Source: Holdemania massiliensis AP2 (GTDB lineage Bacteria > Bacillota_I > Bacilli_A > Erysipelotrichales > Erysipelotrichaceae). Taken from it: a stretch of 64,000 nucleotides of DNA. The position numbers and the translations under genes were made by a program. Below, in pieces: positions 30,542-55,929 of this stretch; the first letter of the stretch is position 1, and each line of letters opens with the position of its first letter. The notes below the pieces were generated by a model. It was not told where the DNA came from, searched no databases, and was given only the letters and a program-made list of their open reading frames with translations. The DNA is taken from the NCBI RefSeq assembly GCF_000327285.1, contig NZ_HE998567.1:245136-309135 (forward strand), read 5' to 3'.

Positions 30542-30555
30542 AAAGACGATGAAAA

Positions 30556-30660
30556 CTTCAGGGCAGGGTGCAATTCCCGACCGGCGGTAAACCCCGCGAG
30601 CCAAATTTGGCTGAACTGGTGAAATTCCAGTGGCGACAGTACAGTCTGGATGAAAGAATG
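30556..30660 (+). promoter_or_regulatory. FMN riboswitch (RFN element)
   Basis: The conserved RFN blocks appear in order: CTTCAGGGCAGGGTG, AATTCCCGACCGGCGGT, AGCCAAATTTGGC, GGTGAAATTCCAG and a closing CAGTCTGGATG-AAAGAA. Bound FMN should favour the terminator hairpin 30 nt downstream and shut off ribU. Confidence 0.96.
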
Positions 30661-30690
30661 TTTTTTTCTTTTTCATAGAGTGATTCCCCG

Positions 30691-54125: not shown

Positions 54126-54148
54126 GAAAAAGAAGTCCGGACTTTGAG
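54126..54148 (-). terminator. Weak terminator after the spoIVA remnant
   Basis: AAGTCCGGACTT (54133-54144) can form a small hairpin, followed on the minus strand by CTTTTTCTTT. It may be the original spoIVA terminator. Confidence 0.4.
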
Positions 54149-54373
54149 CTTCCTTTTTAACGAAGGGAAAATCAGAGAACAATGGCGATGACGTTGCCTT
54201 TGCCGCGGTTGATCAGCTTTGTCAGAATTCCCTGCAGCCGCACCCGTGCTGTTTCCGGAATCATGGACAGTTTAGAGTTTATGTCGTCCTTGATGATATT
54301 CGCCAGTTTGCGGCCGAAAATATCGGATTCCCAGATCTCCTGCGGAGCGCTTTCCTGAGCACGAAGCGGATAG
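54149..54373. repeat. Direct repeat copy A of the spoIVA 3' end
   Basis: About 225 bp that match 55705-55929 in the same orientation, with roughly 14 differences by hand alignment (about 94% identity). Homology starts at CTTCCTTTTTAACGAAGGGA and ends at about CACGAAGC. Confidence 0.9.
54172..54373 (-). pseudogene. Remnant of the spoIVA 3' end
   Basis: Encodes only the last 67 or so residues of SpoIVA (IWESDIFGRKLANIIKDD... to the same stop), with six or so amino-acid changes from the full gene at 55728. The reading frame is intact to the stop but has no start, N-terminal domain or ribosome site; upstream the sequence switches to unrelated AT-rich DNA. A 71-codon reading frame (54172-54387) covers it by chance. 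It is best read as the displaced original 3' end of spoIVA. Confidence 0.85.
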
Positions 54374-54454: not shown

Positions 54455-54482
54455 TTGATAACTGATTTTAAATCTGTATAAT
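54455..54482 (+). promoter_or_regulatory. Promoter of the abiF-type RNA and gene
   Basis: TTGATA (54455-54460), 16-nt spacer, TATAAT (54477-54482). Transcription should start near 54489. Confidence 0.7.
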
Positions 54483-54488
54483 AAAAGT

Positions 54489-54540
54489 AACAGATCCCAC
54501 TACGCCTCTGGTCTTCATGCGCAACCCGGTGGGACTTTTT
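54489..54540 (+). ncRNA. Small structured RNA upstream of the Abi gene (abiF-motif-like)
   Basis: A roughly 50-nt RNA with an outer stem TCCCAC (54495-54500)/GTGGGA (54529-54534), an inner stem CGC (54503-54505)/GCG (54519-54521) and a possible pseudoknot GGT (54510-54512)/ACC (54524-54526). The outer stem is followed by CTTTTT, so it doubles as a terminator. A structured RNA motif called abiF is known upstream of genes for AbiF proteins; I match it from memory of arrangement, not by alignment. Confidence 0.65.
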
Positions 54541-54557
54541 CATTTATGGGAGGTTTT

Positions 54558-55466
54558 ATGTATCAATATCCGAAACAAATATTAACGATAACGCAGCAGG
54601 TACAATCATATATTAATGCTGGGATGACGATTACTTCTTATAAAGATGTTGAAGAAGCATTAAAGTCTATTGGGTTTTATCGTTTACGAGGGTATTCGTT
54701 TCACTTGTATGATAATTCTACGAAAAAGTATGTTCCTGGAACTAAGTTTGATGACATTCTAAAGTTGTATCAGTATGATCAAGAAATATCGATTTTGATT
54801 TTTTCGATGATTTCGAAGATTGAAGTTGCTTTGAGGGTACGGTTGGTTGAAGCCTTACTTGTGCATGGAGACGCATTGATTTTGCAGGATTCGTCGATCT
54901 TTAAAGAAAAAAAGATGTATTGGCAAAACATGTCTGCAATAGCGTCAGAGATTGCCCGGTCTAATGATGTATTCATTAGACATAATTTTGATAAACATGA
55001 AGGTGAGGTGCCTGTATGGGCAAGGGTAGAAGTTCTTTCATTTGGAACTTTATCGAAGATAATTAAGAACTTAAAAACAGGCCCAGGAAGTGTATATTCA
55101 ATATTAGCAGCTAATTACCAGTACATCTCAAAAAAAGGAAATGTGGTAACTCCCTCACAAAAAATGTTTGCTTCATGGGTACAGGGAGTCTCTGTATTAC
55201 GTAATATGTGTGCTCATAATTCCAGAATATATAATAGAACAATACATACTACGCCTGAAATTTTAGATGCAGATAAGATTACGCCACCGCCTTTGCATAA
55301 TGGATTGTATCAAATTTTATTGGCAATGAAATATCTGAGATCATCAAATAAAGAATGGACAGAATTTGCAGAAGAAGTTGATAAGCTGATTCAAAACAAT
55401 AACAGCGTAATTAATCTTGCAGCTATGAATCTGCCGATAGATTGGAAAGCCCATATGAGTGTTTAG
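54558..55466 (+). CDS. AbiF/AbiD-family abortive infection protein (Abi_2)
   Basis: A 302-residue protein of the Abi_2 (AbiD/AbiF) family: N-terminal KQILTITQQVQSYINAGMTI and LKSIGFYRLRGYSFHLYD, and a HEPN-type motif Arg215-x4-His220 (RNMCAHNSRIYN), usual for RNases. It should act as a phage-defence toxin or RNA-guided effector inside the cell. Start ATG 54558 has GGAGG at 54549-54553; ATG 54546 is upstream of that site. The DNA is clearly more AT-rich than its surroundings, a mark of transfer. The small RNA just upstream may restrain or guide it. Confidence 0.88.
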   Translation: MYQYPKQILTITQQVQSYINAGMTITSYKDVEEALKSIGFYRLRGYSFHLYDNSTKKYVPGTKFDDILKLYQYDQEISILIFSMISKIEVALRVRLVEALLVHGDALILQDSSIFKEKKMYWQNMSAIASEIARSNDVFIRHNFDKHEGEVPVWARVEVLSFGTLSKIIKNLKTGPGSVYSILAANYQYISKKGNVVTPSQKMFASWVQGVSVLRNMCAHNSRIYNRTIHTTPEILDADKITPPPLHNGLYQILLAMKYLRSSNKEWTEFAEEVDKLIQNNNSVINLAAMNLPIDWKAHMSV

Positions 55467-55498
55467 AATTCGTTATGATGCATAGACTATTTAAGTAG

Positions 55499-55532
55499 AC
55501 CTAATCAAGCATATTTGCTCAAATCGATTAGG
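55499..55532 (+). terminator. First hairpin after the Abi gene
   Basis: ACCTAATC... CCTAATC (55500-55506) pairs with GATTAGG (55526-55532); CTTTT follows. Weak terminator. Confidence 0.5.
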
Positions 55533-55538
55533 CTTTTG

Positions 55539-55572
55539 GCGAAGTGTTACGATATGCACTTCGTCATTTTTA
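55539..55572 (+). terminator. Second hairpin, likely main Abi terminator
   Basis: CGAAGTG (55540-55546) pairs with CACTTCG (55557-55563), then TCATTTTTATT. Confidence 0.65.
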
Positions 55573-55688: not shown

Positions 55689-55704
55689 ATATTCTTAGAT
55701 TAAA

Positions 55705-55929
55705 CTTCCTTTTTAACGAAGGGAAGATCAGAGAACGATGGCGATGACGTTGCCTTTACCGCGATTGATCAGCTTTGTCAGAATTCCCTGCAGCCGCACC
55801 CGTGCTGTTTCCGGAATCATGGACAGTTTAGAGTTCATGCCGTCCTTAATGATATCCGCCAGTTTGCGGCCGAAAATATCGGATTCCCAGATTGCCTGCG
55901 GATCGCTTTCCTGATCACGAAGCAGGTAG
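55705..55929. repeat. Direct repeat copy B of the spoIVA 3' end
   Basis: This copy completes the intact spoIVA gene. Copy A (54149-54373) lies about 1.56 kb away on the far side of the Abi gene, in the same orientation. Confidence 0.9.

Follow-up and report, generated by a model that had tools for sequence, protein, structure and literature searches.

A gene for an Abi-type toxin lies close behind a small RNA with its own promoter-like sequence in a 64,000-nucleotide stretch of the Holdemania massiliensis AP2 genome (the whole stretch analysed, hereafter the window), which raises the question of what this RNA does for or against its neighbour. We regard the locus, in the full form set out below, as a mobile AbiF-type module of RNA antitoxin and HEPN ribonuclease, with a probability of roughly 0.8. 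The assignment to the abiF type of RNA-antitoxin/HEPN-toxin modules follows from homology, conservation and strong covariation, the latter including the proven antitoxin RCd22.

The toxin gene and the RNA in front of it

The toxin gene (54558..55466, forward strand; abiF/abiD-like, 302 aa) was assigned to the Abi_2 HEPN family with Pfam, PADLOC and PDB comparisons: it matches Pfam PF07751 (Abi_2) at 6.8e-46 (157 bits, cut-off 25.6), the PADLOC AbiD model at 6.4e-86, and PDB entry 8vz6 over nearly its full length (phmmer, 4.2e-30). We place its start at the ATG at 54558, preceded by a ribosome-binding site read from the sequence (GGGAGG, 54548..54553, forward strand); the program-made list of open reading frames begins at the in-frame ATG at 54546. 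The catalytic-type motif RNMCAH (55200-55217) fits the HEPN signature R-x(4)-H, and the R, N and H of RN-x-x-x-H are invariant among diverse relatives of the toxin. The original prediction of a HEPN toxin gene beside the RNA agrees with this, the Abi_2 domain and the R-x(4)-H motif both being present.

The promoter-like site upstream (54455..54482, forward strand, sigma-70 type) consists of TTGATA (54455-54460) and TATAAT (54477-54482) separated by 16 nt, with 11 of 12 consensus matches, as originally predicted; 28 homologous loci retain both hexamers but differ in the spacer. It is followed by RNA1, a 5' abiF-type RNA of about 52 nt (54489..54540, forward strand), identified by Rfam RF03085, by our own model R1, by conservation and by covariation. 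Its stem P1 (CCCACU/GGUGGG) pairs 54496-54501 with 54528-54533, and P2 (CGC/GCG) pairs 54503-54505 with 54519-54521; a small P3 is also present before the sequence ACUUUUU. From sequence and conservation, the closing stem and this U run constitute the intrinsic terminator of RNA1, which ends 17 nt upstream of the toxin ATG with the Abi_2 gene directly downstream. The compact RNA of about 50 nt with a nested stem and a terminal U run ahead of the Abi ribosome site was accordingly well foreseen. A possible pseudoknot, also proposed at that stage and examined here as CAGA (54491-54494) with UCUG (54507-54510), is not supported: every pair can form in the close clade, yet covariation is nil, and the CAGA leader is kept even in RNAs that have no loop partner.

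RF03085 aligns to RNA1 end to end, with the same secondary structure, at 24.4 bits, which is under the gathering score of 37. The model check suggested with the original prediction, for which absence of a hit was to count against an abiF RNA, gave a full-length match of sub-threshold score, so that a hit is lacking in a formal sense only. In the same way, a standard Rfam scan of the window returns only a T-box leader (1796-1999) and an FMN riboswitch (30550-30665), both above their cut-offs, because RNA1 falls below the gathering score. The RNA1s of sister loci reach 32-34.5 bits among the matches listed, so that the window and listed sister RNAs together span 24-34.5 bits against the required 37; the C. 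difficile RNA RCd22 scores 37.6 bits. We built three models of our own, from the 5' RNAs only (R1), from the 3' RNAs described below only (R2), and from both (R3); R1 scores the RNA1 of the window at 76.6 bits.

The folding energy of RNA1 as a single sequence is not lower than that of its shuffles (z -0.2 to -0.3), and the structure is hence unproven by one sequence; despite this null value it is supported by comparison across homologues. A scan of the genomes of 84,980 species for relatives of the toxin yielded 30 loci. A near-identical RNA1 with its -35 and -10 hexamers occurs in 28 of the 28 homologous loci whose upstream side could be aligned, and model R1 detected it in a 29th (L020). Among the 20 full-length homologues, pairwise identity is 98-99% in the two halves of RNA1, 98% in the -10 and 94% in the -35 hexamer, against about 52% at the four-fold synonymous sites of the toxin gene, 65% in the promoter spacer and 38% in the 40 nt further upstream. 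When the RNAs of the window were aligned with divergent abiF RNAs, RCd22 included (14 sequences), 99% of the cells were paired and eight of the nine pairs showed two-sided changes, a level reached by none of 500 shuffles. The abiF hallmarks are all found: a 6-bp P1, a bulged A, a 3-bp P2, a 6-nt 3' bulge, and covariation with accepted members, and the original assignment of RNA1 to the abiF motif is well supported by homology, its sub-threshold Rfam score notwithstanding. That a chance hairpin without function happens to stand behind a promoter-like sequence, as the non-significant single-sequence folding and the expectation of about one random promoter-like match in a region of this size might suggest, is refuted by conservation far above that of four-fold sites and by the strong covariation; we give this notion practically no weight.

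More distant relatives of the toxin, with about 26-30% identity, also have upstream abiF motifs, some of them above the Rfam cut-off (phage phiC2, Cytobacillus, Alicyclobacillus and B. fragilis plasmids, and Picosynechococcus). In Listeria phage LMC no abiF RNA was detected by Rfam or by model R3. A strict-filter Rfam scan of the relatives missed RNA1 of the window itself, and its negatives were consequently not counted as evidence of absence.

The original prediction had offered RNA-guided defence as an alternative, in which AbiF would be guided to foreign RNA in the manner of Cas13 and its crRNA; AbiF has indeed been proposed as the ancestor of Cas13 (PMC12737573). This would call for a variable segment, and RNA1 has none: it is almost invariant across the 28 loci except that its short U-rich loop varies in length. 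With no CRISPR array either, and two abiF motifs in the genome, we consider a guide function very improbable.

The closest studied counterpart is RCd22-AbiFCd of phage phiC2/phi027. RCd22 is transcribed from a SigA promoter and mostly terminates before the toxin gene, read-through producing the toxin mRNA; it binds and neutralises AbiFCd, both in cis and in trans, and lowers abiF transcription in cis, while AbiFCd is bacteriostatic and requires R202 and H207 (PMC12373285). The two systems have in common a SigA promoter, an abiF RNA, a terminator and read-through into an Abi_2 HEPN toxin, as well as P1, the bulged A, P2, the 6-nt 3' bulge and the catalytic R and H, even though the toxins share only about 26-30% identity. 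They differ in that RCd22 has two tandem motifs upstream and a separate terminator, whereas the window has one motif before the gene, whose stem is the terminator, and a second motif after it. A second homologous toxin, PbAbiF, is known from its complex with the ncRNA AbiFr (8VZ6, Zilberzwige-Tal et al., via PMC12737573 and PMC12373285): each monomer of the dimer holds one RNA, and the active site is blocked by unpaired nucleotides of the bulge (PMC12737573). Unlike in the window, no 3' RNA is described for it in PMC12737573 or PMC12373285.

A further abiF-type RNA downstream of the toxin gene

The original prediction overlooked a second abiF-type RNA directly 3' of the toxin gene. RNA2 (55496..55571, forward strand) is supported by RF03085, model R2, folding energy and compensatory changes. 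Its abiF motif (55500-55532) comprises P1 (CCUAAUC/GAUUAGG), P2 (AGCA/UGCU) and the bulge CAAAUC, and a separate strong terminator hairpin follows at 55538-55571. RF03085 scores it at 21.0 bits, below 37, with the consensus bulge GCUCAAAUC present, and model R2 at 95.7 bits; the folding z of the region is -5.05 (range about -5.1 to -6.0). Across 24 loci, 98% of the cells are paired, and four pairs show two-sided changes (13 cells), more than in shuffles. The block of DNA common to most loci extends about 107 nt beyond the toxin stop codon and includes RNA2.

Both RNAs are recognised by each other's models. With R1, the 3' RNA is recovered from the majority of sister loci (E 1e-3 to 0.2); with R2, almost every locus yields its 5' RNA, RNA1 of the window at 5e-5, and R2 also finds the first motif of phiC2 at 1e-4 and detects RCd22. 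In the whole 3.8-Mb genome R3 has exactly two matches, RNA1 and RNA2, and in nine of the ten sister genomes checked such a pair likewise encloses the toxin, at a spacing of about 1 kb. RNA1 and RNA2 both preserve the bulge CAA and P2.

A promoter of its own for RNA2 is possible from a weak -10-like site at the end of the toxin gene (TAGACT, 55483..55488, forward strand), of which the T, A and final T are invariant in 24 loci. In sister loci this site reads TAnAAT and stands 7 nt upstream of the CAGA leader of RNA2 (8 nt for RNA1); in the window both have eroded, to TAGACT and TAGA. No clear -35 sequence was found upstream of the -10-like site, and the 3' end of the toxin gene shows no raised synonymous conservation of the kind an overlapping promoter would leave.

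RNA2 is degenerate in Holdemanella (L015) and so is not strictly essential. This degeneration, the erosion of the -10 site and leader in the window, and the terminator standing separately downstream would all suit a relic, a duplicated motif surviving merely as a piece of the terminator region, which is compatible with RNA1 being an antitoxin. Against it, the compensatory changes and the invariant bulge in 24 loci suggest selection for the abiF fold, as does the persistence of RNA2 in cousins at 58-62% identity; two bracketed cousins, L243 (62% toxin identity) and L244 (58%), have diverged in sequence with the same RNA fold. We think a relic unlikely. A bolder interpretation, to which we give somewhat less than even odds, is that RNA2 would serve as a functional second antitoxin at the far end of the toxin mRNA, perhaps with its own promoter. 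RNA1 with AbiF is of a known kind; the 3' RNA and the clade bracketed by two RNAs are, as far as checked, unreported, no earlier account having been found in a search that covered literature other than the primary abiF-motif and PbAbiF papers.

The bracketed layout and the probable transfer of the cassette

About 30 AbiF loci outside the clade, from phages, plasmids, viral contigs and genomes (an uneven sample with several copies of C. difficile prophages), have upstream motifs, singly or as a tandem pair, but lack any on the downstream side. The bracketed toxins cluster together in the protein tree with support 100/100, in a group that includes L015 and also L114, where the contig ends short of the 3' side of the toxin. 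The bracketed layout marks this single AbiF clade, a lineage that moves horizontally among gut bacteria, and is most simply explained by one gain and one decay. In one genome (L247, G876) two complete bracketed cassettes lie about 12 kb apart.

RNA1 is present at every full-length toxin found with the toxin peptides, and in four loci (L027, L029, L245, L246) most of the toxin is gone but both abiF RNAs remain; toxin-less loci with both RNAs, and no toxin without RNA1, fit an RNA that outlives its toxin and not the reverse, albeit on small counts. Orphan abiF RNAs also occur in Lachnospiraceae (L222, L229, L231-L236, L238, L239, L241, L242), many with a promoter-like -10 and an ACAGA leader, and one of them (L238) in tandem; they adjoin unrelated genes, and no Abi_2 homologue was detected within about 1.5 kb. 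A solo RNA1-like abiF RNA (L209) is located some 4 kb away from the L015 cassette of Holdemanella biformis, in a place where nearby DNA is masked and could hide a toxin.

These loci bear on whether RNA1 is mainly a cis-acting leader or attenuator and RNA2 mainly an mRNA terminator, with no need for binding to the toxin. Such a scheme would account for RNA1 ending in its own stem and U run ahead of the ribosome-binding site, for the terminator that comes after RNA2, and for the cut in abiF transcription that RCd22 exerts in cis. It leaves RNA2 superfluous, a covarying abiF motif besides a separate terminator; nor does it explain the bulge CAA and P2 conserved in both RNAs or the retention of RNAs at orphan and toxin-deleted loci, and RCd22 acts in trans too, by binding the protein. 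We judge this scheme distinctly unlikely.

The cassette lies between two direct-repeat copies of spoIVA sequence, both on the reverse strand and 93% identical over 230 nt. Copy A (54144..54373) is a fragment of the spoIVA 3' end adjoining the native downstream region; copy B (55700..55929) is the 3' end that completes the intact spoIVA gene. Copy A is decaying, with extra non-synonymous changes, and copy B is conserved. Two genus relatives have a single spoIVA copy with no cassette, i.e. an empty site, and the toxin is absent from all three genus relatives. The interval between the two copies shows no integrase or transposase, and insertion via a homologous arm is our guess. Duplicated DNA also flanks the cassettes in L010 (the start of a glycosyltransferase gene), L012 (a 251-bp repeat, 98% identical) and L015 (the first part of a phosphatase-like gene, the copies being just 74% alike), which suggests that these cassettes were inserted in a common way. 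The toxin of the window clusters with those of Lachnospiraceae and not with that of Holdemanella, and since its host belongs to the Erysipelotrichaceae, this placement in the protein tree makes horizontal acquisition most likely.

A putative mechanism and its implications

By analogy with its relatives, the module would work as follows. RNA1 would be constantly transcribed from its own promoter, most transcripts stopping at the closing stem and U run; because this stem with its U run is the terminator, RNA1 would be antitoxin and attenuator at once. The released RNA of about 52 nt would bind the AbiF dimer and block its ribonuclease site. Occasional read-through past the terminator would give the toxin mRNA, which would end in RNA2 and its strong terminator, so that each toxin message would finish with an antitoxin motif; RNA2 might also be transcribed separately, from the possible weak promoter where the gene ends. 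Having two motifs, each unit would provide one for either RNA site of the AbiF dimer, much as RCd22 does with its tandem motifs, and in our preferred interpretation RNA2 would supply the second RNA site as well as feedback on the toxin message. Upon loss or titration of the RNA, for example during phage infection, free AbiF would presumably cut RNA and arrest growth.

The RNA-antitoxin reading of type III-like character in the original prediction gains good support, by homology and by analogy with the work on RCd22 and AbiFCd (PMC12373285). As in the type III systems ToxIN and AbiQ, an RNA antitoxin and a toxin would share one transcription unit with an attenuating terminator, and the RNA gene and the toxin gene are parted by an intrinsic terminator. 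The window differs from these systems in that its toxin is a HEPN protein and not of the ToxN fold, and in that it has no upstream tandem repeat array: one motif stands before the toxin and one behind it.

If RNA2 is a second antitoxin, complete toxin mRNAs would carry an inhibitor at both ends. A feedback tethered to the mRNA would arise, AbiF binding or cutting the message that encodes it, and the antitoxin supply would outlast deletion of the toxin gene. This would be an undescribed, bracketed layout of an RNA toxin-antitoxin system that defines a mobile clade, and a solution other than the tandem motifs of RCd22 to the provision of two RNA sites per dimer. The RNAs of this clade scored so far fall below the Rfam cut-off, and routine annotation would overlook such RNAs. 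As Cas13 and its crRNA have been proposed to descend from AbiF and its RNA, the way in which the motif is copied, arranged and separated from the toxin may inform the origin of guide RNAs.
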